Part shown: positions 7,830 to 48,910 of the stretch, one piece after another
How the letters are laid out: each line of letters opens with the position of its first letter
Position numbering within the stretch: the first letter of the stretch is position 1
Assembly (NCBI GenBank): GCA_015143295.1
Contig: CM026553.1
Coordinates: 1,612,001 to 1,676,000 of the forward strand
Direction: 5' to 3'
DNA length: 64,000 nt
Source of the DNA: Tetracentron sinense
Lineage: Eukaryota > Streptophyta > Magnoliopsida > Trochodendrales > Trochodendraceae
Made by a program: the position numbers and the translations under genes
The notes under the pieces: generated by a model
Database searches by the model: none
Told to the model about the DNA's origin: nothing
Seen by the model: only the letters and a program-made list of their open reading frames with translations

Positions 7830-8259
7830 TGTCACGCCCCAAAATACCCCCTAGGAGTTAAGGGATACTTTAGAGGTAACTACGTGTACCTGCCAAACCA
7901 TCCTGTAATGCAAGAGGCTAAACATAATATAATTCAGTGAAAATCAGAGCGCGGAAACTAAACATAAGTGCGGAAGCATAAGCCAACTTTTCTTTTCTTC
8001 TATAACTCCAAATAGTATTCCAAGTTAACATATACCAAAATACAATCAAAGTAAAGGTGGACATGCCCACCTATCAAAATACAAAAAGGAACTCTCTAAC
8101 CCTCTCCTCTCAACAGTAGTCGAGGTATGGCCACACATCCAAGTCCCCATCCTCCTGAGACTGCCATGGGATAGGTGGCTCCCTCTCCTCTACATACTCC
8201 TCCTCGACCCAAGGCTCGGGGTCGAGGACATCCACAGTACCTGCCGACATAAAAGTACG

Positions 8260-8280
8260 GCTGAGCATGGAATACTCAGC
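8260..8280 (-). other. Conserved LTR hairpin, GCTGAG stem
   Basis: The stem is GCTGAG/CTCAGC around a nine-base loop that reads TATTCCATG in LTR sense. The same loop recurs at the equivalent position of several other LTRs here, with ACTGAG/CTCAGT at 49832-49852 and 56843-56863. A GGCAG|GT motif follows about 20 bases downstream in LTR sense. The second LTR copy is at 15872-15892. Confidence 0.6.
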
Positions 8281-8525
8281 GAGTACAAACTACTTGCTAA
8301 CCATAACAATAGCGAAAGCATAACAACAGTGAGCAATACAAGATATTAATTTAAAGCAATAGTGAAAGCATAAGATACATAGCCATATCTTGACATGCGT
8401 GTATGAATGCAAAAACCTCGGTAAAACTCATGTCTCGGAAACCCTTTTCGTGTCTCGGTCAAATCATGTATATGTGTCGTGTCTTGTCTTGTATTTCATG
8501 TCTTGATTTGTTCTTGACTTGTATA

Positions 8526-8940
8526 CTTGTGAGCCAGAGGCTAGCACCCTTCCTTGGGCTACCAACCTCCTTGTCATGTTCTTGTTCCATTTCTCTTGTG
8601 AGCCAGAGGCTAGCACCCTTCCTGGGGCTACCAACCTCCTTGTCATGTTCTTGTTTCATTTCACTTGTGAGCCAGAGGCTAGCACCCTTCCTTGGGCTAC
8701 CAACCTCCTTGTCATGTTCTTGTTCCGTTTCTCTTGTGAGCCAGAGGCTAGCACCCTTCCTGGGGCTACCAACCTCCTTGTCATGTTCTCTCTTGCAATT
8801 CACTTGTGAGCCAGAGGCTAGCACCCTTCCTTGGGCTACCAACCTCCTTGTCATGTTCTTGTTCCGTTTCTCTTGTGAGCCAGAGGCTAGCACCCTTCCT
8901 GGGGCTACCAACCTCCTTGTCATGTTCTTGTTTCATCATA
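8526..8940 (-). repeat. LTR tandem array, six 69-bp units
   Basis: Units start at 8526, 8595, 8664, 8733, 8803 and 8872 (spacing 69-70). They alternate between CCTTGGGCT and CCTGGGGCT variants, so the array is three 138-bp dimers. In LTR sense each unit can fold using GAGG/CCTC, TAGC/GCTA and CCC/GGG. Open frames across it are a by-product of the repeat length (69 is divisible by 3), not genes. The identical array is at 16138-16552. Confidence 0.9.
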
Positions 8941-9902
8941 TACAAATACAATCTTGGAAAACCCGGTTTCATGCATGCATGCGTGCTTGTGTGCTTGTCA
9001 ATGGTGGTAATCATGATGACATACTTAAAAGGGGCGGATCACATGACTATGGCATTTCAATCCTTAACATAGTGGTATGAAAGCTTAGGCAACATATAGC
9101 ACATTTGAGCAATTTATCATTTCTAAGAACATTTACACAATTTCTATTTCCATTTTCTTCATTAATTCCATTTATCCCTTGTTTAGTCATTTTATCAAAC
9201 ACCCGGTGGGCCACATTTCTTAGTCCTTCCATTTCCCTTATTTAGTGCGTATTTTTCATCAAGACATCAAGGTACATTTGTTATTTGTAAAGTGCCCATC
9301 TTCCATTTTCCATTTCACACATCACACAACATCCATACGGCATCCAATCGCCTCAATCGACATCTCATCCACACATCCATACCTTTTTCTTTATCTTGTT
9401 TATATTTAGTGGAGATGATACATTTTATAAGGAAGTAAACATACTACCAAGAGTCACATTTCACAATAGAAAATCTAGACTATTGCTAAAGAAAGTTAGT
9501 AGAGTGTACTAACCTTGAATCAAGGCTTGATCCTTAGTAGAAACCTTGATTGAAGCTCCAACTTGCAAGAAGAAAGATCCTTGCTTGAAGAAGGCTTAGT
9601 GTGGGGAAAACAACCTTGAAGTTGCCGTAGAAAACGCTGCCCTACCTTGGAGAAGGAGTCCCACACGAACTTGAGGTTGGATTTTCGAAATCCAAGCTTT
9701 TAGGGATGCTCTTGGGGTGCTTAAACCATTGATCTTACTCTCAAATGGAAAGGGGGTTTTGGAACCCTAGTTTCTTCTCCCTCTCTCTCAAATATCCCTA
9801 AGTGTTGTAAGTGAGGCCTCAAAGGGTCGAGCAAACCCTTATGGGTAAGGGTTTAACACCCAAAAGACGAAAAAGCCCTTAATGAAAATTCTGAAAAACA
9901 CG

Positions 9903-10101
9903 AAGACCGAGCGATCGGTGGTTATGACCGATCGATCGGTTGCCTACCGAGCGATCGGTGTTTATGACCGATCGACCGGTCAAAAACTCACTCTCTGGAA
10001 AATTTCCCCATACAAAATTTCTGACCGTGCGATAGCTACCGATCGATCGGTTATGGACCGATCGATCGCTGACTGGACCGAGCGATCGGTCTTCTGTATG
10101 T
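9903..10101 (-). promoter_or_regulatory. CG-rich palindrome cluster in LTR, putative upstream promoter element
   Basis: About eight copies of CCGATCGATCGG-like palindromes (variants CCGAGCGATCGG, CCGATCGACCGG, GTGCGATAGC) flank a conserved AT-rich core containing CCATACAAAATTT. In LTR sense the cluster lies between the CGCAAGTTGAATCGTC block and the expected transcription start. The same cluster is at 17515-17713. The promoter role is inferred from its position upstream of TATA boxes in related LTRs. Confidence 0.6.
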
Positions 10102-10302
10102 CTGGACTGTTTTGACCATATCTTTTGACTCGCTCGTCGGATTTCGACGATTCAACTTGCGTTGGGTTCGTCTTTCGAAAACGCACATTTCTGACGTTTC
10201 GGAATTTCCGATTTCTCCCTTATTTATTAATTAGACTACAAAAACGGCCAATTAGCTACGAATGTGCTATTCATTAAGGATGAAAAAGTCCGGGGTGCTA
10301 CA

Positions 10303-10319
10303 TTCTCCCCCCCTTACAA
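10303..10319 (-). other. Polypurine tract of intact chromovirus
   Basis: On the minus strand this reads GTAAGGGGGGGGAGAA, immediately before the 3' LTR. It is the plus-strand primer site. The related element at 48474 has GTAAGGGGGGAGGGA at the same place. Confidence 0.88.
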
Positions 10320-10412
10320 AAATTTCGTCCTCGAAATTTGGACAATGCGTGCTTTACAATTTAAACAACTTAGCATAACAATTTGAAACAAAATTACAAG
10401 TCATACATAAGA

Positions 10413-13400
10413 TCATTCAAACAACTCGGGGTGCTTCGCCTTGACTTCGGCCTCACGTTCCCACGTAGCCTCTTCTCGAGCGTGATGTTGCCATTGCACG
10501 AGAACTAGCGGAATAGTCTTGTTGCGAAGTACTTGGTCTCTTCGATCCAAAATATGAACCGGCTTCTCAACCAAAGTGAGATCCTCTCGAATCTCAACCG
10601 GATCAAGCTCGATGACGTGAGAAGGATCCGGGATGTACTTCCGAAGCTGGGAGATATGAAACACGTTGTGGACCGCCGCCATGTGAGTGGGCAAAGCAAC
10701 ACGGTAAGCCACCTCGCCAACTCGAGTAATGATCTCGAACGGACCCACATATCTCGGGCTAAGCTTGCCTCTCTTCCCGAATCGCATAACACCTTTGGTC
10801 GGTGAAATCCTTACAAACACAAAATCACCGACTCGGAATTCAAGATCCCTCCTTCGGTTGTCGGCATAGCTTTTCTGTCTATCTTGTGCGGTCTTTAACC
10901 TCTCCCGGATAAGCTTGACCCTATCCGCGGTTTGTTCAATTAACTCGGGGCCTAAAATCTTTCTTTCTCCCACTTCATCCCAATACAACGGGGATCTACA
11001 ACTCCTTCCGTACAAAGCCTCGAAAGGCGCCATTTGTATGCTTTCTTGATAACTATTGTTGTAAGCGAATTCCACCAAAGGTAGGTGATCTTCCCAACTT
11101 CCCTTGAAGTCTAGCATACATGCTCGGAGCATATCTTCAATAACCTGATTCACCCTCTCGGTTTGCCCGTCGGTCTGTGGGTGGAAAGCTGTGCTAAAGT
11201 CTAATCGGGAGCCCATTGCACCTTGAAAACTTTTCCAAAACCTGGATGTGAATCTTGGGTCTCTATCCGACACAATACTCACTGGCACCCCATGCAATCG
11301 GACTATTTCTTTGATGTATAGTTCTGCTAACTGGTTGGAGTTGAATGTAGTCCGGTATGGTAAGAAATGAGCGGACTTCGTGAGTCTATCAATAACTACC
11401 CATATAGCATCGGTCTTCTTGACCGTCTTTGGCAATCCCACGATGAAGTCCATAGAGATATGTTCCCATTTCCACTCGGGAATAGGGAGAGACTGCAAAA
11501 GACCCGCTGGTCTCAAATGCTCTGCTTTCACCTGTTGGCATACCAAACACCGTGCCACATACTCCGCAACCTCCCTCTTCATGTTTCGCCACCAAAAGTG
11601 ACTCTTGAGGTTCCGGTACATCTTTGTCCCCCCGGGATGCACTGTATACTTAGACCGGTGAGCTTCGTCCATAATCTCTCTCCGAAGGTCTGCATTGGCT
11701 GGGACACAAAGCCTTCCCTTGAATGTAATAGCACCTCGGCTAGTGAGAGAGAAGTCCGTACTACCCTTGGCCACTTCCTTATCCCGGAAAGCCAACAAGT
11801 CAGTGTCTGTGGCTTGATACTCCTGGATCAAGTCTATAAGGTACGACCGAACTGTAACATTTGCCAAAACCGGACTGCGGACAGAATCGTTCACACTGAT
11901 GTCTAGATTTGCCAAATCGTCTAACAGTCTCCATTCCCGCACCAACATGTGAGCCAACAACCCCGATGGTTTCCTACTCAGAGCGTCTGCCACCACATTT
12001 GCTTTTCCCGGGTGATATTGGATAGTGCACTCGTAGTCCTTTAAGAACTCAATCCAACGCCGTTGTCGTAAGTTTAACTCTTTTTGGGAAAAGAGATACT
12101 TGAGGCTCTTGTGGTCCGTGTACACATAGAACTCCACCCCGTACAGATAATGTCGCCAAATTTTAAGTGCAAACACGACCGCCGCAAGCTCCAAGTCGTG
12201 AGTGGGGTAGTTCTTTTCATGCTCTTTCAACTGCCTTGATGCATAGGCAATGACTTTCTTGTGTTGCATTAGGACACACCCGAGTCCGACGTGCGAGGCA
12301 TCACTATACACCTCATACCCAAAAGGTCCAGATGGCACAGTAAGGACAGGGGCTGTGGTGAGGCGTTTCTTCAACTCTTGGAAACTTACTTCACATCGGT
12401 CACTCCAACTGAACTTTGCACTTTTTCTTGTCAAGTAGGTGAGAGGTGCAGCCAAACTGGAGAATCCCTCCACAAATCTCCGGTAGTAGCCTGCCAATCC
12501 GAGGAAACTACGTATCTCCGTGACGCTCTTGGGCCTCTCCCAACTCATGACTGCCTCAACCTTGGCTGGATCTACCGAAATGCCCTCGGCCGACACCACG
12601 TGTCCAAGAAATGCGACCTTCTCTAACCAGAACTCGCACTTACTCAATTTGGCATATAGCCTATGCTCTCTCAACATCTCTAGAGCAAGGCGGAGGTCTC
12701 GCGCGTGATCTTCCCGTGTCTGGGAATACACCAAAATGTCATCAATGAATACAATCACGCATCGATCCAAGTAAGATCGGAACACCCGGTTCATCAAATC
12801 CATGAATGCCGCCGGTGCATTCGTCAGCCCAAAAGGCATGACAAGGAACTCGTAATGCCCATACCGAGTCCTGAAGGCCGTCTTCGGAACATCTTCCGCC
12901 TTGATCCTTAATTGATGATACCCCGATCTAAGATCAATTTTGGAGAAGAATCTCGCTCCCTTCAGTTGGTCGAACAAGTCATCGATCCTTGGCAAGGGAT
13001 AACGATTCTTGATAGTTACCTTGTTCAACTGACGGTAGTCTATACACATTCTCATCGACCCGTCTTTCTTCTTTACAAAAAGGACCGGAGCTCCCCACGG
13101 TGACACACTTGGTTGGATGAAACCAAGTTGTTGTAACTCCTCAATTTGCTTCTTCAATTCTTCAAGCTCTATCGGGGCCATTCTATATGGGGCTCTTGAA
13201 ATTGGAGCGGTGCCCGGAGTAAGCTCTATAGCGAACTCAATCTCCCGATTCGGAGGTAACCCGGGAAGTTCCTCCGGAAACACGTCCAAGAAATCACTCA
13301 CGACCGGAATGGCCGAGGAGTTTTGTGCTTCTAGGTTTGTTACACTCAAGGCTGCGAGGCGAGCAATGTCCCTCTCTCTTAATCCTCGGAAGTGAAAAGG

Positions 13401-13744
13401 CTTACCCCCTTCCGGCTTGAAATTCACCATCTTCTCAAAACACGCAACGTGCCCGTGATGGTTTGACAACCAATCCATCCCTAAGATGACATCAAAATCC
13501 AAGTCTTGAAAATCTAGGACGATGAGATCGGCTAACAGTTCATTCTCCCCCACTTGAACCACACTATCCCCGAATATCTTGTCCGTATCAACTGACTTGC
13601 CGAGTGGAGTTGCAATGGTCAACTCCTGCTTTAACGGAGTAGCCTCAGTCAAAAATCCCTTTGCGAAACTAGGCGACACAAAGGAGTGAGTGGATCCTGT
13701 GTCGATCAACACTCGGGCAAGACATTCGTTCACTAACAAAGCGC
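10413..13744 (-). CDS. Pol polyprotein (PR-RT-RNaseH-INT-chromodomain), exon 2 of gag-pol
   Basis: This 1,108-residue open frame (counted from the TTG at 13739) encodes the full pol. Protease has DTG at 13-15. RT carries KIDL near 269 and FIDD at 331-334. RNase H shows D480, E517, D542 and D585. Integrase has an HHCC finger (H694, H701, C731, C734) and catalytic D764, D825, E861 with the usual 35-residue D-E spacing. A chromodomain-like tail (about 1052-1105) ends in KHPELFE. It has no good ATG of its own; the first codons are reached by joining across the intron-like interval 13745-13876, which gives [15 protein letters not shown] without a break. The predicted Gag-Pol is about 1,522 residues. 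No inactivating change seen. Confidence 0.93.
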
Positions 13745-13876
13745 CTGTGCGATTAAGTGACTACTATTAGTAGATTTCAAACAACAAGCATCATACATAG
13801 GTAACCCTTAGTATAGAAACTCACAAAGCAAACCATAGAAATTTTACACAATTTAAATTCTAGAATTCGTGCGTAC
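13745..13876 (-). other. Candidate 132-bp spliceosomal intron between gag and pol
   Basis: In minus sense the donor is CAAG|GTACGCACGA and the acceptor is ATCGCACAG|GC. A TACTAAT branch-point match lies about 22 bases before the acceptor, and the interval is AT-rich as plant introns are. Splicing joins gag to pol in frame; unspliced RNA adds THEF and stops at 13860. The diverged element at 48474 has the same donor and the same join (51904-52040). Confidence 0.78.
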
Positions 13877-15113
13877 CTTGCACGACATCGTCGGATGCAC
13901 GTGCGTCTCTCTCGGATAAAGCAAAGACTCGGCCCTGTGTGGCTGGGCGAGGAGGCCGGGTAGACTGTGAGGCCCTCGAAGCCTGAGAAGAGCTAGGCTG
14001 AGATGTCTGCCTAACCGGGGGCCTGCTCCCTGAAGACTGAGTTGGCAATTGACGCCGGGGACAATCTCTGACCATGTGGCCTTGGTCACCACAATGAAAG
14101 CAACTTCCTGAAACTCTCCGGCATTCTCCCGCTGGATGCCTCCTCCCACAAAGAGTGCAAACATCATGCAAATAGGAGGAAGGAGCATATCCCGTAGCCT
14201 GAGTAACTGCGGGGCGAGGAGCATATGAGGTAGCCGGGCGAAAGGCCGGTGGAGCAAAAGAGTGAGGGGCCTGTGGTGCCGAATACATCCTCTGTGACTG
14301 AGCCGGCCCTGCGGACTGATACAAGCTAGTCCTTGCCCTTTTCTCCCCTGAACTACTTGACTGTCCTTTCTCCATTCCTCTTCTCTTAAAGAACTCTTCG
14401 GAATTCGACTCGGCCAACAATGCCTTGTCCACAACTTCTGAATATGTCTCATGTCGGAACATCGAGACACGATCCTTGAGGTAGGCCTTCAACCCCCTCT
14501 CGAATTTCCGGGCCTTCATAGCCTCGGTCGCTATCATGTGTGGAGCAAATCGAGATAGCTCCGAAAATTTGGCTTCATAAGCCGCTACGGACATATTACC
14601 TTGCTCCAAGGTAATGAATTCGACTTCCATCTTTTCTTTTATCCCGATTGGGAAGTACTTCTTGTTGAAAACCTCCAAGAATTCCTCCCAAGTCCAATCT
14701 TGACCTTGCCGGGTCAACTCTCGGGTCCGAAGTGCAGACTTCCACCAATGATCGGCCTCGCCTTCAAGCATAAAGGCGGCCCATGTGACCCTTTCCACTT
14801 CAGTAGGTGCTAATACCGAGAATATCTTCTCAAGTTGCCGGATCCAACCCTCGGCAACAAGTGGATCAATGCTTCCACAAAAAGTTGGAGGCCTCATCCT
14901 CCGAAAAGCTTCTATCCCGGCTTGGGCTCGGTTAGGAGGAGCCGGTATGAGTGCCGCATTAGGCGGAGTGGCCGGTTGCCTTGCCGCCAACATAGCCAAG
15001 GTCCCGGCTATGGATGCGAATGCTTGGGCAAAATCGGGTTGATCATCACCCGATGGAGCATCACCTCCATTACCCCTCGTGTTGTACCCGCGACCCCGGG
15101 TATTGCGTCTCAT
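13860..15113 (-). CDS. Gag polyprotein of intact chromovirus
   Basis: The ATG at 15113 starts MRRNTRG, matching the start of every related gag here; an in-frame ATG lies seven codons upstream at 15134. The capsid region includes AFRRMRPPTFCGS, EGEADHWWKS and LEQGNMSVAAYEAKF. A serine- and proline-rich linker leads to two zinc fingers: CX2CX3HX4C (C326, C329, H333, C338, counted from 15134) and a canonical CCHC knuckle (C345-C358). It ends QGTHEF*, the last four residues coming from intron-retaining RNA. Gag should form the particle in the cytoplasm and package RNA. About 417 residues, intact. Confidence 0.92.
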   Translation of the reverse strand: MRRNTRGRGYNTRGNGGDAPSGDDQPDFAQAFASIAGTLAMLAARQPATPPNAALIPAPPNRAQAGIEAFRRMRPPTFCGSIDPLVAEGWIRQLEKIFSVLAPTEVERVTWAAFMLEGEADHWWKSALRTRELTRQGQDWTWEEFLEVFNKKYFPIGIKEKMEVEFITLEQGNMSVAAYEAKFSELSRFAPHMIATEAMKARKFERGLKAYLKDRVSMFRHETYSEVVDKALLAESNSEEFFKRRGMEKGQSSSSGEKRARTSLYQSAGPAQSQRMYSAPQAPHSFAPPAFRPATSYAPRPAVTQATGYAPSSYLHDVCTLCGRRHPAGECRRVSGSCFHCGDQGHMVRDCPRRQLPTQSSGSRPPVRQTSQPSSSQASRASQSTRPPRPATQGRVFALSERDARASDDVVQGTHEF

Positions 15114-15425
15114 GATTTCTCCTGAGAACGACAATACAACATGAGTCTAACTTGGATACACAATTAGTACAAATTTCGCAATTCACTTAATACATATTCA
15201 TCAAGCACATTTAATAAGTACAACACAAATAATGTACACATGGTATATAACACAATAGCATAACATACAATCCGTGTTCCTAGCGTAGGACTCTATGTTC
15301 GGTTGAAGTTCAACCCATTTTGACTAAGACTAACTTGTTAGTCTATACTTGGAATACAACTCTCTAAGGTGATTCTAATGCCTTGTTCAATCATCTAAGT
15401 GACCCTAGGGACTCTAATGCCTAGG

Positions 15426-15437
15426 GCTCTGATACCA
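15426..15437 (-). other. Primer-binding site of intact chromovirus
   Basis: On the minus strand this is TGGTATCAGAGC, a few bases inside the 5' LTR. It is a Met-tRNA primer site. Confidence 0.93.
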
Positions 15438-15441
15438 CTTC

Positions 15442-17914
15442 TGTCACGCCCCAAAATACCCCCTAGGAGTTAAGGGATACTTTAGAGGTAACTACGTGTA
15501 CCTGCCAAACCATCCTGTAATGCAAGAGGCTAAACATAATATAATTCAGTGAAAATCAGAGCGCGGAAACTAAACATAAGTGCGGAAGCATAAGCCAACT
15601 TTTCTTTTCTTCTATAACTCCAAATAGTATTCCAAGTTAACATATACCAAAATACAATCAAAGTAAAGGTGGACATGCCCACCTATCAAAATACAAAAAG
15701 GAACTCTCTAACCCTCTCCTCTCAACAGTAGTCGAGGTATGGCCACACATCCAAGTCCCCATCCTCCTGAGACTGCCATGGGATAGGTGGCTCCCTCTCC
15801 TCTACATACTCCTCCTCGACCCAAGGCTCGGGGTCGAGGACATCCACAGTACCTGCCGACATAAAAGTACGGCTGAGCATGGAATACTCAGCGAGTACAA
15901 ACTACTTGCTAACCATAACAATAGCGAAAGCATAACAACAGTGAGCAATACAAGATATTAATTTAAAGCAATAGTGAAAGCATAAGATACATAGCCATAT
16001 CTTGACATGCGTGTATGAATGCAAAAACCTCGGTAAAACTCATGTCTCGGAAACCCTTTTCGTGTCTCGGTCAAATCATGTATATGTGTCGTGTCTTGTC
16101 TTGTATTTCATGTCTTGATTTGTTCTTGACTTGTATACTTGTGAGCCAGAGGCTAGCACCCTTCCTTGGGCTACCAACCTCCTTGTCATGTTCTTGTTCC
16201 ATTTCTCTTGTGAGCCAGAGGCTAGCACCCTTCCTGGGGCTACCAACCTCCTTGTCATGTTCTTGTTTCATTTCACTTGTGAGCCAGAGGCTAGCACCCT
16301 TCCTTGGGCTACCAACCTCCTTGTCATGTTCTTGTTCCGTTTCTCTTGTGAGCCAGAGGCTAGCACCCTTCCTGGGGCTACCAACCTCCTTGTCATGTTC
16401 TCTCTTGCAATTCACTTGTGAGCCAGAGGCTAGCACCCTTCCTTGGGCTACCAACCTCCTTGTCATGTTCTTGTTCCGTTTCTCTTGTGAGCCAGAGGCT
16501 AGCACCCTTCCTGGGGCTACCAACCTCCTTGTCATGTTCTTGTTTCATCATATACAAATACAATCTTGGAAAACCCGGTTTCATGCATGCATGCGTGCTT
16601 GTGTGCTTGTCAATGGTGGTAATCATGATGACATACTTAAAAGGGGCGGATCACATGACTATGGCATTTCAATCCTTAACATAGTGGTATGAAAGCTTAG
16701 GCAACATATAGCACATTTGAGCAATTTATCATTTCTAAGAACATTTACACAATTTCTATTTCCATTTTCTTCATTAATTCCATTTATCCCTTGTTTAGTC
16801 ATTTTATCAAACACCCGGTGGGCCACATTTCTTAGTCCTTCCATTTCCCTTATTTAGTGCGTATTTTTCATCAAGACATCAAGGTACATTTGTTATTTGT
16901 AAAGTGCCCATCTTCCATTTTCCATTTCACACATCACACAACATCCATACGGCATCCAATCGCCTCAATCGACATCTCATCCACACATCCATACCTTTTT
17001 CTTTATCTTGTTTATATTTAGTGGAGATGATACATTTTATAAGGAAGTAAACATACTACCAAGAGTCACATTTCACAATAGAAAATCTAGACTATTGCTA
17101 AAGAAAGTTAGTAGAGTGTACTAACCTTGAATCAAGGCTTGATCCTTAGTAGAAACCTTGATTGAAGCTCCAACTTGCAAGAAGAAAGATCCTTGCTTGA
17201 AGAAGGCTTAGTGTGGGGAAAACAACCTTGAAGTTGCCGTAGAAAACGCTGCCCTACCTTGGAGAAGGAGTCCCACACGAACTTGAGGTTGGATTTTCGA
17301 AATCCAAGCTTTTAGGGATGCTCTTGGGGTGCTTAAACCATTGATCTTACTCTCAAATGGAAAGGGGGTTTTGGAACCCTAGTTTCTTCTCCCTCTCTCT
17401 CAAATATCCCTAAGTGTTGTAAGTGAGGCCTCAAAGGGTCGAGCAAACCCTTATGGGTAAGGGTTTAACACCCAAAAGACGAAAAAGCCCTTAATGAAAA
17501 TTCTGAAAAACACGAAGACCGAGCGATCGGTGGTTATGACCGATCGATCGGTTGCCTACCGAGCGATCGGTGTTTATGACCGATCGACCGGTCAAAAACT
17601 CACTCTCTGGAAAATTTCCCCATACAAAATTTCTGACCGTGCGATAGCTACCGATCGATCGGTTATGGACCGATCGATCGCTGACTGGACCGAGCGATCG
17701 GTCTTCTGTATGTCTGGACTGTTTTGACCATATCTTTTGACTCGCTCGTCGGATTTCGACGATTCAACTTGCGTTGGGTTCGTCTTTCGAAAACGCACAT
17801 TTCTGACGTTTCGGAATTTCCGATTTCTCCCTTATTTATTAATTAGACTACAAAAACGGCCAATTAGCTACGAATGTGCTATTCATTAAGGATGAAAAAG
17901 TCCGGGGTGCTACA
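15442..17914 (-). repeat. 5' LTR of intact chromovirus
   Basis: It is 2,473 bp, the same length as 7830-10302 and offset by exactly 7,612 bases, and all compared blocks are identical. It is flanked on the right by the TSD GGTAG at 17915-17919, after which the copia sequence resumes. It drives transcription leftward. Its repeats are at 16138-16552 (69-bp array) and 17515-17713 (palindromes). Confidence 0.95.
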
Positions 17915-18291: not shown

Positions 18292-21167
18292 TGTAACGAC
18301 CCGGAATTTTAATAAAATAAAATTATACGTTTATGGGTTCTTAACTGAGGTTGATTAGTTAAGTATTTTTTAAATTTGTGGAAAATCAGGTTTGAAGGCG
18401 AGGAGTTTCACCTTGGGCGTTGATCTTTTTCCCGAACGTGTTGGTAGTGTCCGTTTTGCCCCTAGACGTCTCGAAAAGCGTGAAAGGAGTAAAATCCCTC
18501 TTCATCTCTTCTTTTTTCTCTTATTTAAGCTACTCTAATTATGTGGAATGATTAGGTGATATTATGTGTGGATGAAAAAAAGGTCAGAGACCTTATGAAT
18601 GATGTATGGATGGGATGAATGGGAGTGAAAATAGAGTAGAGGGACGGAGCCCTCGGTTTCGGGCTGTTTCTAGCTCGGAATTTAGGCTTAGTGTGATTTG
18701 CGATAGATCGCAGGGGAAGTGCGATCGATCGCAGGTGCGATCGACCGCAGGAAGTTATGAGAGCCTGACTGGGCTTCTATATGTCTGATGTCATGTGATG
18801 TTTGTTTTAAGGCAATGGTAGGTCCATTGGCCTGGTAAAAGTCCCACCTCGGGACAACCTTTGTGTATGATGTGATATTGTTGGGACATGGTAAGGCGAT
18901 GGAATGGTCCATCGGCCGAGTAATGTTCCACATCGGAACGGTATACCATCGGACTTGGTACACGGGCGTGAGGCCCAACTGGTTCAATTATTCAAGCAGG
19001 GCTTGAATAGTTGGGGATTTCCTATGGTTAGGAAACTTAACCTACGTGAAATGTTGTCTGTGGTCCCTCTTTGGCTAGGTCTGGAGAGGCGGTATCTATT
19101 ACGAGCCCGGGTTCCTCCGTGACTAATAGTCGGGAGAGTTAGGACGACATTGGGCCATGGGCTCAAGGTTCGATTTGGGTCTATGTACCCAGTGATGTAT
19201 TAAGTTTACGAACTCAATGATGTTACCTTGAGGGGGCATTGGCCTATATCGGCAAGTATGCACCCAACAGATGTTGTGATGATATATGATGGTAGCTGTC
19301 AGAGGTGTTGTGCCTGACAGGATTTGATGTCAGAGGTGTTGTACCAGATAGGATTTGATGTCAGAGGTGTTGTGCCTGGCAGAGGTTAATGTCAGAGGTG
19401 TTATGCCTGGTAGAAGTTAATGTCAGAGGTGTTATGCCTGACAGAGGTTAATGTCAGATACGATTTGATGTTAGAGGTGTTTCATGGTTATCAGATGGGT
19501 GTTCCTGACATGTTAGATGTGTTGTACCTGGCAGATCAGATGTGTTCCTGGTAATCAGATGTGTTTCCTGACAAGAGTGTCATGTCAGAGGTGTTATGCC
19601 TGACAGAGTGATATGTCAGATGTGTACCTGATAGACAGGTGTTTCCTGATGGTCAGGTGTTTCCTGTTAATCAGAGGTGCGTCCTTGACTTTTCAGATGA
19701 GTTTCATTTTCCTGACAGGTTGGATGGGTGTCCTGGCTATCAGATGTGTATCTTGGCTGATCAGATATGTATCATGACAACCAGATGTGTATCCTGGTGA
19801 TCAGATGTGTTTCCTGACAAATGTGGTTGTGTGTGTTGGTGTTCCTACAGATCAAAAAATAGAAAGTAATATGTCAGAGGTGTTGTGCCTGACAGGATTT
19901 GATGTCAGAGGTGTTTCCTGGTTATTAGATGGGTGTTCCTGGTATGTTAGATGTGTTATTCCTAGCAGGTCAGATGTGTTTCCTGACAAGGGTGTCATGT
20001 CAGAGGTGTTATGCCTGACAGAGTGATATGTCAGATGTGTACCTGATAGACAGGTGTTTCCTGATGGTCAGTTGTTTCCTGGTGGTCAGGTGTTTCCTGT
20101 TAGTCAGAGGTGCGTCCCTGGCTTGTCAGATGAGTTTCATTTTCCTGACAGGTTGGATGGGTTTCCTGGCTATCAGATGTGTGTCCTGGCTGATCAGATG
20201 TGTATCCTGGCAATCAGATGTGTATCCTTGCAATCAGATGTGTTTCCTAACAAATGTGGTTGTGTGTGTTGGTGTTACCATAGAGGGAAAATATAAAGTA
20301 ATTGTCAGAGGTGTTCCTGACAGAGTGTGATATGTCAGAGGTGTTGTTCCTGACAGAGTGTGATACGTCAGAAGTGTTGTTCCTGACAGAGTGTGATGTA
20401 TCAGAAGTATTGTTCCTGGCAGTTATCGGGTGAAGACCCGGGTTATGTGTAGAATATGATGATTTAAGGATTAATTGGGTCGACATACCCAATGATTGGT
20501 TATAATCGGGAAAAGTCCCGATTGGTTGATAATTGAGTTTGTGGACTCATGGATAGAGGTTTTACACGGGCGAATGCCCAGTCGATCGAGTCTATGGACT
20601 CAAGGATAAAGCATGAGCGGTTATCTGAAACGGTAACCTGGTGTCATGGACAATAACTGGATGAATTTGACAACTTGGAGGTCGGGAACCTCGAAGATGG
20701 TTAGATAGCCCTGAGTGACCTCGGGTCACAAATTACGATATTATTATTCTGCATATTATTATAATATGAGAATTGTATTGTACTACTATATCATTATTGA
20801 TGAATGTTATTATGTGGAAAATTGTTTAGATGGGCTGTAGATTTTGCTGGGCTATATGGCTCACTCCTTCATCTTATGTCTTCAGATTCTGGAGCGATTG
20901 TAGATTGGCAAGAAGCTATGCTTGATAGAGTCTGGAAAGTGTTCCGGCGCAGTTGCGGCGCCAAAGTAAGGACTACTGTAGCCAGTGAGGTATCACATTT
21001 GCTTATGATGGGTTATTGTGATGACCAGTTGTTATTGCTTATGTAAGTTCATAAGAAAAGTTTAAAATTTTGGCATTTTCGCGGGTAAAGTCTTTCGATG
21101 CGTGGTTATGACGAACGGGCACGTGTCTCAGAACTTGACTCCTTAGGCACGGGTTCGGGGTGTCACA
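18292..21167 (+). mobile_element. Solo LTR, 2,876 bp, TSD GTCTT
   Basis: It is bounded by TGTAACGACCCGG and GGGGTGTCACA, with GTCTT on both sides and no internal coding, so it is a solo LTR left by recombination between two LTRs. It has GCGATCGATCGC-type palindromes at 18697-18752, a possible TATA near 18775 and a large degenerate array at 19290-20425. It is unlike the chromovirus LTRs in sequence; lineage unknown. Small open frames inside are repeat artefacts. Confidence 0.88.
19290..20425 (+). repeat. Degenerate hairpin-type tandem array in solo LTR
   Basis: The repeating phrase is GTCAGAGGTGTTGTGCCTGAC and variants, spaced roughly 30 bases. Many units carry GTCAG...CTGAC, or a GTCAG...CTGAT wobble form. 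A longer segment is duplicated: about 19567-19870 recurs at about 19982-20300, an offset near 415 bp. Confidence 0.85.
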
Positions 21168-30100: not shown

Positions 30101-30185
30101 TTGTATTCTCTTTGTAGGATGGTTTGAAGTATAAGTCACGTTGCCCAAGTACCAAAACTCCTAGGTGGTATTTTGGGGCGTGACA
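27148..30185 (+). repeat. 5' LTR of a Ty3/gypsy fragment, apparently a mosaic of two LTRs (3,038 bp)
   Basis: It is bounded by TGTAGAACCCCAG and GGGGCGTGACA and followed by a primer-binding site. Inside there are two complete promoter modules. The first has the GCAAGTTGAATCATC block (27663), a GCTCGAGCGAGC palindrome cluster (27745-27860) and TATAAATA (27897-27904). The second has the same block (28917), GCGATCGATCACAC palindromes (29010-29231) and TATAAATA (29274-29281). A short repeat AAGTACATC(T/C)TACTATCTAGC at 28140 and 28221 lies at the join. Confidence 0.75.
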
Positions 30186-30189
30186 GAAG

Positions 30190-30201
30190 TGGTATCAGAC
30201 C
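30190..30201 (+). other. Primer-binding site, one mismatch
   Basis: TGGTATCAGACC differs at one base from the TGGTATCAGAGC seen elsewhere and lies four bases after the LTR end. Confidence 0.85.
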
Positions 30202-30511
30202 CTAGGTATTGGGTTCTCTAAGGTCGTTTAGAGTTCAATACCATGAGTAAGCCAAGGCATTAAGTTCATCTTAGGAGTCATATTCCAAGTGGAGACTAAC
30301 AAGTTAGTCTTAGTCAAAACCTATTGAAATCTCAACCGAACTTGGTGTCGTACGCTAGGAAACATTAATTGTATGCTTATACTATTTTATTGTATGCCAC
30401 GATGTATTGTTATGTACCTTATAAATATTAGGTGATTGTTGAAATTGGGGTCGAAATAAAGTTGGTTTCCAAGTTAGACTCATGCTTTACTATTGTTCTC
30501 AGGATTCAATC

Positions 30512-30581
30512 ATGAGGCATGGAAATCAGGGTTGCGGTTATCATACTAGAGGAAATGAAGGTGACGCTCCAATAGGGGATG
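30512..30581 (+). pseudogene. Gypsy gag, first exon-like piece before solo LTR insertion
   Basis: The ATG at 30512 opens MRHGNQGCGYHTRGNEGDAP, the same start as the other chromovirus gags, and is cut at 30581 by the solo LTR. GGATG (30577-30581) is duplicated at 33191-33195, and the frame resumes there. Confidence 0.85.
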
Positions 30582-32127
30582 TGTAGCACCCCGGACTTTT
30601 TCATCTTTAATGAATGGCACTTTCGTAGCTAATTGGCCGTTTTCGTAGTCTAATTAATAAATAAGGGAGAAATCGAAAATTTCAAAACGTTAGAATTGTG
30701 CGTTTTCGAAAGAGGAACCCAACGCAAGTTGAATCGTCGAAATCCGACGAGCGAGTCAATAGATATGGTCAAAACAGTCCAGACATACAGAGCACCGATC
30801 GGTCGGTCCAGTCAGCGATCGATCGGTCCATAACCGATCGATCGGTAGCTATCGCACGGTCAGAAATTTTGTATGGGGAAATTTTCCAGAGAGTGAGTTT
30901 TTGACCGGTCGATCGGTCATAAACACCAATCGCTCGGTAGGCAACCGATCGATCGGTCATAACCACCGATCGCTCGGTCTTCGCGTTTTTGCAGAAATTT
31001 CAGTAAGGGCTTTTTCGTCATTTGGGCATTTCACCCTTGCTTTATATGCCTTGCACGAGCCTAAGGGTTTCATAAACCCTTAGGGCAGATATTTGAGAGA
31101 GAGTGGGAGAGGAGAAAGGGGTTCTAACCTAGGGTTTCATCTTGAGAGTGAATCAAGGGTTTAAACACCCAAGATCATCCCAAAAAGGGCGTGGATTCAT
31201 CAAATCCAACCTCAAACTCGTGTGGCATTCCCATTCCAAGCTAGGGCAGCGATCCTACGGCATTTTGAAAGGGGTTTCTTCCCCAAATTAAGCCTTCTTC
31301 AAGTAAGGGTTCTTCCCTACCATTTGAGGTTCGATTTCAAGGTTTCTTCAAGGTCAAGCCTTGATTTCAAGGTTAGTACACTCTACTAACTTCATTAGTG
31401 ATAACCTTGATTTTTCTTCCTCAAATATGATGATTTTATATGTTGTTGTCCCTTTTTATTGAGTTGTGATGAAATCCCTATAATAAATAAGATAAATGGA
31501 TAAAGGTGTGGGAATTTGTGAAGGGATGGTGGATTGTGGCGAATGGGTGCCGTGTGGGGTGATGTATGTAATGGGATGGATAATGGTGGAAGGGCGTTTT
31601 CAACATAATGAACATACCTTTGTGATGGATGAAAAACATGCACTAAGCAACTTAAATGAAAAGGCTATAATAGTGATGCTTACCAAGTGTTTGAGAAAAT
31701 GTTTAAATGACGATTTGAATGAGTGAACTCGAATTATAAAAGCATGCATTGAATTATTCTTTCTAAAATGCCTATCTTGATCAATTGTGCTACATGTCAT
31801 TTACATTTCCATATTCTCATATTAAGAATTGAAATGCTATGCTCATGTGACCATCATACTCAAGTATGTCCTCATGCCTACCACAATTTCTACACACACG
31901 CACGCATGCTTGCATGAACTGGGTTTATTTCACGAGTATTAGTGCATGAGAAATAAAACGAGAGACAAGCATATGTCAAGGAGGTTGGTAGCCCAGGGAT
32001 GTGCGGGTGCTAGCCTCTGGCTCACAAGTTAAACGAACATGAATATCAAGGGTAGGGCATATCCCTAGGATATGTCATACCTGGCTCACAAGAAAACATG
32101 ACGAGCAAGGATCAAGAAACATGGAAG

Positions 32128-32420
32128 GGTGTTAGTGTACTAAGACCAGGTACGGGCACTAACATCTGTTCCCTAACACGCATGAAAGTATGCTAGTGTA
32201 CTAAGACCAGGTACGGGCACTAGTGTATGTTTCCAAGACAAGCATGAAAGGATGTTAATGTACTAAGACCAAGTACGGGCATTAACATCTGTTTCCAACA
32301 AGTATGAGAGGATACTAGTATACTAAGACCAGGTACAGGTACTAGTATCTGTCTCCAAGCGAGAATCAAGAAATATGGAAGGGTGATGATGTACTAAGAC
32401 CATGTACGGGCATTGTCATC
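32128..32420 (+). repeat. Five-unit array of ten-base-pair hairpins with covarying stems
   Basis: Left arms start at 32128, 32189, 32251, 32311 and 32382; right arms start at 32157, 32218, 32280, 32340 and 32411. Each arm is ten bases and each intervening loop is exactly 19 bases, reading TACTAAGACCAGGTACGGG with few changes. All 50 positions pair (44 Watson-Crick, 6 G-T wobble in LTR sense) although the five stems differ at seven of ten columns. The loop itself has an inner TAC/GTA pairing. Confidence 0.88.
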
Positions 32421-32766
32421 TGTTCCCAGGCAAACAAGAAAACTCACGAGCAAGTCAACAAGAACATACGCATAATACTCACTCACGAGACAAGAACCGG
32501 GCAAGAACCTAGTACGTCTGTCCAGTTCATAGTTCGGGTACTAGCTAAACCAGAACAAAACAAGGCAGGTGTGATTTCCACGATACGAGAACAAGTCATG
32601 ACTTTTGGATACGAATTTACAATGCATGAGTTGATGTTCATGATTTACTTACGTGGTTATGTTGTTTTAGCTTCCGCGCTCTGAATTTGTATCTCTTGGG
32701 TGAACTGTATCATGTATTACATGTTATGCTATTGTTATTACTATTGTTAGTTAGTAGCTTGTACTC

Positions 32767-32787
32767 GCTGAATATTCCATGCTCAGC
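32767..32787 (+). other. Conserved LTR hairpin copy
   Basis: The sequence is GCTGAA-TATTCCATG-CTCAGC, five of six pairs. It is followed by CGGCAGGT, as in the intact chromovirus LTR. Confidence 0.5.
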
Positions 32788-33190
32788 CGTACTTTTATGT
32801 CGGCAGGTACATTATGCAGCATATGAACTCTTGCCCCTTGGATCGAGGTAGCTCGGTGTGAGCAGGAGATCCTTCGGATGGTTACCTAGATATTAGGAGG
32901 CTTGGCATATGGTCAATGGTTGGGATGAGTTAGCGAGAGAGACATGTATTTGGGTTCTTGTGTTTGGGGATGTTGTCTCACTTGAGTTGGGACTCAAGTG
33001 GAGGAGTTCATGTTCATGTTGTAAATCCTATTTAATTATTGTAATCAAATGCACTTGGAATATAGTTAAGTATTTAAAGAAATTTCTAGTTCTCTATTTT
33101 GCATGCCTTGTATACTCTTGCAGGTTGATTTAAGGTTAGGTCACGTCGCCAAAGTATCCTAACTCCTAGGGGGTATTTTGGGGCGTTACA

Positions 33191-33837
33191 GGATGAGCAA
33201 CTTGACCTTACACAAGTCTTGGGGTTGATAGCTGAGACCTTAGCTATGCTCGTAGCCAGGCAACCTGCCACCCTTCCTCCTGCTGCAGCACTAGTCTCTA
33301 CTCCTCCAAACAGAGCATAGGCAGGGATAGAGGCATTTCGGAGGATGAGGCCTCCGGTATTCTATGGTGGCATAGACCCATTGGTTGCAGAAGCATGGGT
33401 AAAGCAGCTGGAGAAGTTGTTCTCTGTCTTGATGCCTATGGAGGCAGAGAAAGTTACATGGGCCGCCTTTATGATGGAAGGTGAGGTAGATCACTGGTGG
33501 AGATCCGTCATCAGAACGAGGGACTTGACTCGAGCAGGTCAAAAATGGACTTGGGAAGAGTTTCTCGATGTCTTCTACCAGAAACACTTCCCAGTATGAG
33601 TTAGACAAAAGAAAGAACTAGAGTTCGTTACCTTGGAGTAGAGGAACTTGACAGTGGCAGAGTACGAGGCCAAGTTCTTTGAATTGTTGAGGTTCGCTCC
33701 ATACTTGTAACCATGGAGACAATGAAGGGCAAGAAATTCGAGAGCGGATTGCAGGCCTGTATCAGAGATAAGGTCTCAATCTTCAGGCATGAGACCTATC
33801 CAGAGGTTGTGGACAAGGCTTAGTTGGTAGAAACGAA
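33191..33837 (+). pseudogene. Gypsy gag, continuation, truncated by the Tat/Ogre element
   Basis: Reading resumes with LTQVLGLIAETLAMLVARQPAT, the AFRRMRPPVFYGG segment, EGEVDHWWRS and WTWEEFLDVFYQKHFPV, then decays through TAG stops and a frameshift by 33700. It ends at 33837, where the Tat/Ogre LTR begins with TGTAAGCACCC. The gag lacks its zinc fingers and all of pol. Confidence 0.88.
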
Positions 33838-34314
33838 TGTAAGCACCCAATTTTTACACCCCTACCTAACCATAGTTAAGGTCTTTTAACCATGGTTATC
33901 CCCTACCTAACCATGGTTAAGATAATTTAATTATTGTTACCCCCAGCCAAGCCCTCTCAACCCTAGGACATAATTCTAGTCAAACCCTAACTCTAGGTAA
34001 ACCTCTAGTTAACCTTAGGTCCAACCCAAAGTCAAACCTTAGGTAACCCTAGAACCAAACCCTAACTCTAGGTAAACCTCTAGTTAACCTTAGGTCCAAC
34101 CCTAGGACCTAACCCTAGTTAAAACATTAGGTAACCCTAGGACAAAACCTTAGCCCTAGCCTAGCCCTAGAGCTCTTAGGGCTTAAACCCTATAGACCGT
34201 GGCCCCTAGGGCCTGAACCCTTGGCTTGTGCCCAATGGGCCCAAAAGTCCATAAGCCAACCCCCCTTACCATAGGCGTGCATGGACCAGGCCCTGTTTAA
34301 ACAAATCCAGAATT

Positions 34315-46263: not shown

Positions 46264-47642
46264 TGTAGAACCCCAAAAATTTCGTATATGTCTTGGAATG
46301 CGTGTCAAGGTACGATGTGTTGTAACCTCCAAATTTCATGAAATGTGAAATTGGAAGCTTTGAGAATTTTACACGAGTACTATAAAATAATTAAATAAGA
46401 TAATTAATGATATGCCATAGTCTTAAAAAGGTCCTAGTCATGTTTAGAAGAGGTTAGAATGGAAGTGGAATGAGTCCAAGTAATGAGATTGAGTGAGAAA
46501 TGGACTCAGTGTCAAAATTGCACAACACCGATCTCTCAATCCATATTAGCGATCGATCGGTCCACAACCAATTGATCAGTAGCTATCGACTGGTTAACTA
46601 ATTTGTATGGAGAATTTTTCTAGAGAAGGTGTTTTTGACCGATCGCTCAGTCAAGAACACCGGTCGATCGGTAGGCAACCGATCGCTCAATATTAACCAC
46701 CGATCGATCGGTCTACCGCGTTTTGCAAAAATTTCATTAAGGGCTTTTTCTTCTTTTGGGCGTTACACCCTTGCTTATAAAGGCTTGCTCGAGCCATAAG
46801 GGTTCATAAACCCTTAGGGCAGAGTTTTGAGAGAGAATGACAGAAGAGAAAGTTGGTTTTTCACCCTAAGGCATCAACTTGAGAGAATCAAAGGGTTTGA
46901 AAATCGTAGATCACCACAAGCTTAGATTTCTTCAAACTCACGGCTCAAGCACGCGAGAAGCACCTCCTCCAAGCTCGACAGCAACTCCACACACGTTTAG
47001 AGGGTTCTCTTTCCCTATTCAAGATCGGTACTATATGCTACCCTCCTAGTTCATATTCTCCCTTTTCTTCCCTTCGTTCTTGTTTTCCCTAAAGTATGAA
47101 TATAATAGGAGATGGATTGTGGTGTGGAAATGGATGTTTGGCGATGGATGCCGTGTGTGTGTTTGTGATGAATGAAATGGGAAGGGCATTGTACCAATAA
47201 TGAACACATATGTATGTTGTGAGCATCAATCCATCTAGAAAAGCATGATGTAGGCCTTAACCATAATGTACGCACCAAATGTTTGATAAAATGCTGCAAT
47301 GAAGAAAATGATGATTTTGCTTGAAAATGCATGTATGAACTTTCTTTAAATTCCTAGAATGGCATGTTGTAGATTTAATCGCTTTATTAATTGCTTGGAT
47401 TATTCATCTACTGTGATGATATTATGCGCCATTTCTTATGCTTTAATTGTACACAAACAACAAGCACGACATGTAGTCCATGAGTAGGGTTTGTCACACA
47501 TGAAATACCATGTTTTGTTTTCAAGAAAACCAAGTACAAAAGTCTCGATTTATGACCACCATGTCAAGGCCAAACATAATGGTTGGTAAATAGGGGTAGG
47601 GCATATCCTAAGATATGCTTTGCTCTGATATCACAAGTTCAA

Positions 47643-48040
47643 CATAGTGGATACTAGTTGCGACGGGTTATGAACGGCAGCTAGGCATTCCCAGTCAAGC
47701 ATAAGGGATGCTAGTTTGCGACGGACTATGAATGGAAGCTAGGCATACCCAGTTCTGCATAGGGGATACTAGTTACGATGGACTATGAATGGCAGCTAGG
47801 CATACCCAGTTCAGCATAGGGGATACTAGTTGCGACGGACAATGAACGACAGCTAGGCATACCCAGTTCAGCATAGGGGATACTAGTTGCAACGGACTAT
47901 GAACGACATCTAGGCATACCTAGTTCAGCATAGGGGATACTAGTTGCAACGGGCTATAAACGGCAGCTAGGCATCCCCAGTCAAGCATAAGCGATGCTAG
48001 TTTGCAATCGACTATGAACGGCAACTAGACATACCCAATT
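47643..48040 (+). repeat. Tandem array, about seven 59-bp hairpin-forming units
   Basis: The repeating phrase is GGATACTAGTTGCGACGGAC and then TATGAACGGCAGCTAGGCAT, at intervals of 57-61 bases. CTAGTTGC can pair with GCAGCTAG in each unit, with an outer GGGAT/ATACCC pairing in some. Same LTR position as the unrelated array at 32128-32420. Confidence 0.85.
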
Positions 48041-48276
48041 TCAAGAGAATATGAACCAGGACATGACGAGTAAGACAGAAATGATAAGATAAGTTCTCAA
48101 ATGCGAAAAGAGTATTTTAAGTCAAGTCAAGGACATGATGTTTTCAAGAGCTCTTCCAATTTGATATGATGCAAGAATAAACTATAAGCTGTTTATATTT
48201 CCTGTCAATTATATGAATGGCTTCCTGCTTTACTCTGTATTTTATTGTTATGGTTGTTGGATAGTATTTGGTAGCC

Positions 48277-48297
48277 ACTGAGTATTCCATGCTCAAT
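48277..48297 (+). other. Conserved LTR hairpin copy
   Basis: ACTGAG-TATTCCATG-CTCAAT, one mismatch in six pairs, at the same position as in the other LTRs. Confidence 0.5.
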
Positions 48298-48910
48298 CGT
48301 ACTTTTGATGTCTGCAAGTGTTAGTGGAGCACCTGCTCTTTTTGACATATGTGCTCCCGATCCGTGGGAGGAAGAGGAGTACGTCGAGGAGGCCCCTGTT
48401 GAGGAGCCTCATGTAGAGGGCTACTACTAAGTGGTAGATTCTAAGTGAGTGGGGGTGAGCGTGAGAGATTATATGTAGAGCCCCGAAATTTCATTTCACT
48501 AAGAATGAATAGTGTGTGAATAGTGCCCAAGTGTGGTTTTGTACACTTATGGGTCTTATGTTAATATATGTGTTTGGAATTATGGCGTATATGTTCCAAT
48601 GGGTCTATATGTCCTTAGGGAATGTGTTGAAAGCATAAAAGAGTGTTGGAAGTGCATTGGGGAAGATTCGAGTGGTGTAAACAAGGTTTTTCAGCAAAGC
48701 AGGGGTCGATCGATCGCTCGGTCATTACCTGCGATCGATCGGTCAACTACCGATCGCTCGATAGCTGTCGCACGGTCAACTTTTTTGTATGGGGAAAAAT
48801 TTCAGAGAGTGTGTTTTCGACCGATCTCTCGGTCCATACCACCGATCGATCGGTCATACGCAGATTTTCTTCATTAAGGGTGTTTAAGACTTTAACCATC
48901 ACCCTTTGCC

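Follow-up and report, generated by a model that had tools for sequence, protein, structure and literature searches.

The five tandem hairpins in a long terminal repeat (LTR) of Tetracentron sinense raise the question of whether arms that differ from unit to unit, and are nevertheless fully paired, reflect selection on an RNA structure or have been matched in the DNA itself, by correction of one arm against the other or simply by descent. We have investigated the array within its window, the whole stretch of 64,000 nucleotides analysed here, and in copies found elsewhere in the same genome. Taken together, the results make it very probable that a sense-strand RNA structure is under selection.

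Results

Geometry and pairing of the hairpin array

An earlier note on this DNA had described five units with ten-base arms around 19-base loops, a description that holds, as 50 of 50 arm cells are paired (44 Watson-Crick, 6 G-T, no A-C and no other combination) and seven of the ten left-arm columns are variable, as claimed. The ten-pair arms are therefore real, but an outer helix had been overlooked. In every unit the ten arm pairs are followed outwards by a G.U pair, then by a G bulge and then by four more pairs (GGAA/TTCC in units 1 and 5, GAAA/TTTC in units 2 and 3, GAGA/TCTC in unit 4), giving a full helix of 15 pairs, and the outer four pairs likewise vary in a compensated fashion between units. 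The loop, said to be nearly constant, varies by one letter in three of the five window units, and in the majority sequence of 30 copies the identical 19 letters are present in all five.

With the 15-pair model, 75 of 75 cells are paired in the five window units and 7 pairs have changed on both sides. The covariation score of this model is 0.613 compared with a mean of 0.333 for shuffled sequences, a value reached in none of 500 shuffles, and models slid by 1–3 columns pair in only 36–51% of cells. When the right arms were re-dealt to the left arms in 120 ways (mean 66.4), 75 of 75 was obtained by the true deal alone, the runner-up being as high as 73 because the arms of different units are alike. 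Left arms pair with the right arms of other units at 11–15 of 15 positions, and mispairing between units is thus possible. The loop, allowing at most three mismatches, occurs five times in the window against an expectation of 0.00.

Folding of the sense strand produced the 15-pair helix in all five units. On the antisense strand, a like helix was formed in units 3 and 4, eight pairs were formed in unit 1 and the helix was lost in units 2 and 5. Folding energy of the single units is ordinary (sense z −0.33 to −2.08), and for a 641-base region around the array z was −1.99 in the sense (none of 20 shuffles as good) and +0.38 in the antisense orientation. The weight of the observation lies in the set of five units and in the genomic copies, rather than in single-unit stability. 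A search of the window with 4,227 Rfam families at the gathering score returned no matches. By eye, a further possible hairpin with a different loop (CTAGTAC/GTACTAG, 32509–32544) is seen 3′ of the array; it is absent from the minimum-energy fold.

Table 1. Positions of the hairpin array, its host LTR and related features in the window.
Feature	Positions	Strand	Remarks
Hairpin array, five units	32123–32426	+	inside solo LTR 30582–33190
Unit 1 (type 1)	32123–32172	+	loop 32138–32156
Unit 2 (type 4)	32184–32233	+	loop 32199–32217
Unit 3 (type 5)	32246–32295	+	loop 32261–32279
Unit 4 (type 6)	32306–32355	+	loop 32321–32339
Unit 5 (type 7)	32377–32426	+	loop 32392–32410
Solo LTR, 2,609 bases	30582–33190	+	TGTAGCACCCC...GGGGCGTTACA; ends, 5-base target duplication, insertion into leader of another element
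Target site duplication GGATG, left	30577–30581	.	
Target site duplication GGATG, right	33191–33195	.	
TATA-like motif	31735–31741	+	sole + strand TATAWAW match in LTR; possible promoter 5′ of array
Hairpin H1	31980–32018	+	GGAGGTTGGTA/TGCTAGCCTCT, four G.U; single copy here, six in neighbour LTR
Hairpin H2	32050–32082	+	GGGTAGGGCATATCC...; relative in LTR-like region near 47600
Six H1 copies, 69-base period	8526–8936	−	matching place of related LTR; found with TRF
Identical six-copy H1 array	16138–16548	−	other LTR of neighbour element; LTRs 100% identical
Seven 57-base repeats	47636–48037	+	third LTR-like region; possible hairpin

The host LTR and related LTRs in the window

The flanks of the solo LTR (30156–30571 and 33192–33838) match 15471–15054 and 15047–14403, stretches which are nearly continuous in the element at 7830–17914, indicating that the LTR was inserted into the leader of a different element. 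This second element, at 7830–17914, is itself a complete-looking Ty3/gypsy element on the minus strand, with gag and pol frames, the latter containing a chromodomain, and the identity of its two LTRs indicates a very recent insertion. Its six-copy H1 region is stable in the sense orientation (z −3.47) and not in the antisense (+1.76) when compared with shuffles, and the H1 stem in this neighbour also has four G.U pairs. Since the six stems are invariant, they yield no covariation information. In the 57-base array near 47636, changes on both sides were found in none of 13 predicted pairs.

Within the solo LTR, a sequence resembling a splice acceptor was noticed by eye at 32759–32810, consisting of CTGAG..CTCAG, which is hairpin-like, then a run rich in T and GTCGGCAG/GTAC. 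Similar stretches, also by eye, occur in the LTR at 7830–10302 and near 48270–48320.

Copies of the array in the genome

Copies were sought in the 1.16 Gb assembly (1,479 contigs). With the array as query 40 of 1,706 candidates were scored, all of them 98–100% identical, and with a neighbouring LTR stretch 40 of 3,128 candidates; the 30 copies that define the majority sequence are loci taken from the array query. Searching with a pattern in which the third base of the right arm is a purine located 25 places, and 15 of these were retrieved; an older unit used as query located 196 places, from which 60 stretches were retrieved. Exact duplicates and loci in which at most one loop was recognised were excluded, so that the analysed set comprised 99 distinct arrays with 575 units, from loci L001–L136 other than L061.

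The arrays of this genome draw on seven unit types that follow a fixed sequence, the commonest orders among the 99 arrays being 14567, that of the window, in 29 and 1234567 in 15. The window subfamily, consisting of types 1, 4, 5, 6 and 7, appears to have lost two units. Left and right arm types agree in 526 of 543 classified units, the remaining 17 being chimeras, and 32 units could not be classified. Whole-unit rearrangement is seen at L039, where two unit types are repeated and the final unit is chimeric with a mismatch; the array at L042 has nine units. One unit type exists in three forms, GGTGTTAATG/CATTAACACC at 12 loci, GGTGTTAATG/CATTAACATC with a G.T pair at 10 loci and GATGTTAATG/CATTAACATC, the form of window unit 3, at 36 loci. 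The series from GGTGTTAATG/CATTAACACC to GATGTTAATG/CATTAACATC looks like compensation by way of a wobble intermediate, with this direction being the presumed one.

The pattern had been called classic covariation, a description that is only partly right. With a null that respects relatedness, in which the same changes evolved along the tree (60 nulls), just 1 of 1,225 column pairs, corresponding to stem pair 6, was significant at E<0.05. If the 15 stem pairs only are tested (E × 15/1225), pairs 1, 3, 6, 10, 13 and 14 fall below 0.05. The weakness of the phylogeny-aware covariation is due to the small number of independent events that separate the stem types. Covariation alone is thin, and the case rests on the comparison of private with shared changes.

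Private and shared changes in the stems

Stems present at five or more loci (16 stems) contain 210 Watson-Crick, 13 G.U and 1 A.C cells and no others, and stems confined to a single locus (226 stems) contain 2546 Watson-Crick, 247 G.U, 131 A.C and 240 other cells. The invariant G.U pair is excluded from these counts and from those of the cleaned set described below. Changes were placed on a tree built from 361 unique units, after 29 of 390 had been removed with a sequence rule that took no account of pairing, and changes from one non-pair to another are omitted from the counts of kept and broken pairs. Private changes kept 78 pairs and broke 129, compared with 58 kept and 13 broken by changes common to at least three loci (p=8e-11). 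Similarly, private changes from Watson-Crick pairs gave 63 G.U and 60 A.C, compared with 26 and 7, respectively, for changes common to at least three loci (p=0.005). Changes at exactly two loci resemble the private ones (G.U:A.C 11:15), and the G.U excess for changes at two or more loci (37:22) is not significant (p=0.16).

A cleaned set was obtained by removing the 70 units that had served to select loci, with 25 of 334 unique units dropped by the same rule. In this set the kept:broken ratio was 44:12 for changes at three or more loci and 70:110 for private changes (p=2e-7), with G.U:A.C ratios of 21:8 and 55:55, respectively (p=0.04). Changes at 3–9 loci gave 14:2 for pairing (p=0.0003) and 10:2 for G.U:A.C (p=0.03), and those at 10 or more loci gave 30:10 for pairing (p=4e-5) and 11:6 for G.U:A.C, the latter not significant (p=0.3). 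In young copies, 10 of 4184 stem sites are variable compared with 14 of 1458 spacer sites (p=0.0007), a comparison based on 27 copies picked by another LTR stretch, with L031, L039 and L042 excluded.

Shared changes thus keep pairs and favour G.U, an excess predicted by pairing in sense RNA, suggesting that the lineages which replicated were selected for sense-strand pairing. The RNA-level structure proposed in the earlier note is supported by these changes at several loci, together with the conservation of the loop from one unit type to another.

Conservation of the loop

Loop changes are rare on deep branches, those with at least 10 loci, where 6 were counted compared with 169 private ones. 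In the cleaned set the numbers are 3 and 151, rarer at depth than pair-keeping stem changes (30 deep and 70 private; p=6e-11), and loop changes at 3–9 loci show no depletion in this set (p=0.51). In young copies 14 of 2565 loop sites are variable, a level similar to that of the flanking LTR, and three loop changes are peculiar to the window copy when it is compared with the 30-locus majority. As deep loop changes are rare and young ones are LTR-like, the loop appears to be held in the long term while tolerating young changes.

A kissing-loop duplex between two loops has an energy of −7.6 kcal/mol, which 68% of letter shuffles equal or better, giving no sign of dimerization by this route. For two LTR stretches, 39 and 43 of 60 shuffles equalled or bettered the complementarity to the loop, and for the internal part 4 of 60 did so; none of these was convincing. 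Viral contigs searched with the loop and with the conserved LTR hairpin gave no matches, and those searched with the pol frame of the neighbour element gave two stretches, none confirmed. The loop letters CCAGGT presumably correspond to a six-base match to the T-arm of the initiator tRNA, for which we estimate a chance expectation of about 0.2.

The internal region of the family

On one contig (C5), two LTR copies, L020 and L019, flank an internal region (L061). Four frames of at least 100 amino acids were found in this region, of which the two on the plus strand were scanned for families. One, of 443 residues, contains Retrotrans_gag, Ty3_capsid and zf-CCHC (zinc knuckle) domains; the other had no family, and no pol was recognised in the region. 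Among 30 LTR loci, seven continue into a leader with TGGTATCA(G/A)AGC, and six of these leaders are 96–100% identical to the internal part, the seventh being 82% identical. Among 33 matches to the Gag of this family, the named protein relatives are from flowering plants including Vitis, Camellia, Cornus and Solanum. TR-GAG elements are described as non-autonomous, with only a GAG domain, or GAG and AP domains, between LTRs (PMC6022998). As judged from one internal region, the family fits this definition, the window copy itself being a solo LTR. L019 and L020 lie 5.45 kb apart and share the internal sequence on their 3′ side, as if they were tandem copies.

Discussion

A proposed multivalent RNA signal

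We consider it probable that the array is an LTR-borne, cis-acting element of the sense RNA in a Ty3/gypsy-type family, gag-only in the internal region examined, and that it acts as a multivalent signal with Gag as the most likely partner. A promoter 5′ of the array would cause it to be carried in the element RNA; with the sole TATAWAW match at 31735, the array would lie in the RNA leader. There, each unit would present the 19-base loop on a rigid 15-pair stem with a bulged G, and repetition of the loop on such stems could create a multivalent docking site, the occurrence of one loop on several stems suggesting multivalent binding. The differing stems would be expected to lower, without abolishing, pairing between units. 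As the internal region keeps gag only, Gag packaging would be the likeliest use, in which the Gag zinc knuckle might read the array and thereby select the element's own RNA for packaging. We offer packaging as a possible function and as a guess. The related element, in which six copies of another hairpin occupy the matching place of the LTR and stability is confined to the sense strand, is consistent with an RNA signal.

Extension to the LTR group as a whole can be made tentatively. Multivalent recognition arrays might be a property of this group, with a loop repeated 5–9 times and stems kept different for the sake of self-folding, and with related families using other hairpins at the same LTR position, as the neighbour may do with its six H1 copies. 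A gag-only element could in this manner secure capsids for itself, and which Gag packages which RNA could be set by the way in which arrays turn over from family to family.

Alternative explanations

Selection on the same hairpins could instead come from a host protein acting in export, translation or stability of the RNA. This is a somewhat doubtful candidate, to which the same structural evidence applies, the binder being named by none of it; that the scanned internal region keeps gag and no other recognised domain makes a link to Gag somewhat likelier, if weakly so. The remaining explanations dispense with a protein-binding RNA signal and are all improbable. Arm correction without function, by DNA hairpin repair or by snap-back copying in reverse transcription, would account for the complete match of the arms in the window and had been offered in the earlier note in its DNA-level form. 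The genomic copies speak against it, and we rate it very unlikely. Their private changes broke 129 pairs and kept 78 and produced G.U and A.C equally, the even split that strand-blind mutation gives, indicating that no arm-to-arm correction operates in these copies. Correction of either kind should also erase wobbles, yet stems with two or three G.U pairs persist at 27–29 loci, and among shared changes G.U is preferred on one strand. Just as unlikely is shared descent only, in which matched arms were inherited through unit duplication and the pattern is drift. The similarity of the unit types and the weakness of phylogeny-aware covariation are in its favour, but drift does not explain the difference between 58:13 and 78:129, nor the 14:2 at 3–9 loci in the cleaned set, and stems change more slowly than spacers.

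Still less credence is given to a role of the array as DNA elements, that is, as tandem palindromic sites for transcription factors. Tandem repeats in the U3 of the LTR of tobacco Tnt1 are reported in the regulation of transcription (PMC3601003), and the present array resembles them as a set of tandem repeats within a plant LTR. The Tnt1 repeats are described as regulators of transcription, whereas here sense-strand pairing and the loop are held and the array lies 3′ of the sole TATA-like motif. A DNA site should moreover fix the letters of the arms, which vary while pairing and loop are held, and could not distinguish G.U from A.C, of which G.U is favoured. The least probable reading is that the hairpins feed small-RNA silencing as miRNA-like precursors. 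A miRNA precursor has a long stem with a conserved arm of 20–22 bases, and the hairpins were rejected as such, as the stem has just 15 pairs and the arm letters vary, the loop being held instead. Transposon hairpins in maize have been reported to accompany small RNAs (PMC10760457), an observation that favours this reading.

Relation to known systems

To our knowledge, few RNA signals have been mapped in plant LTR retrotransposons. In RNA viruses, dispersed packaging signals have variable stems and a shared loop motif, as does the present array. Stem-loops for packaging and dimerization are described in the RNA of the retrovirus MMTV, with loops that bind Gag (PMC8096270), and of Ty1 (PMC5454406). 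The proposed signal is like these in consisting of stem-loops in the RNA of an LTR element, in which Gag presumably contacts the unpaired letters of the loop. As described in those sources, the MMTV and Ty1 signals comprise a small number of different stem-loops close to the 5′ end for which binding has been shown, whereas the array consists of 5–9 tandem copies with the same loop inside a plant LTR, with Gag as a putative ligand. Multiple dispersed packaging signals are reported for MS2 and STNV (PMC6281560, PMC4751978, PMC3593212), where many stem-loops serve as multivalent capsid contacts, a role which for this array is a proposal. Their signals are scattered over single-stranded genomes, whereas this array is tight, tandem and located in an LTR. 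The TR-GAG elements share LTRs around a gag-only internal part, and differ in that hairpin arrays are not mentioned for them in the available text of PMC6022998. In the open-licence literature, mainly as titles and the beginnings of abstracts, no report was found of stem-loops arrayed in tandem within a plant LTR; titles and beginnings of abstracts likewise gave no paper on a packaging signal of a plant LTR element.

Compact, with a conserved loop on variable stems, such an array offers a convenient bait for the protein that recognises this kind of RNA, and it could reveal what distinguishes gag-only families from their relatives. Setting private against shared changes among the copies of a single genome also distinguishes selection on RNA from repair of DNA, with no experiment required.

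Elsewhere in the window, at 19297–20422, another array of short inverted repeats is present (CCTGACA/TGTCAGG-like, with periods of 18–33). Folding of 19290–19790 compared with shuffles gave z −3.13 on the minus strand and −0.64 on the plus strand.
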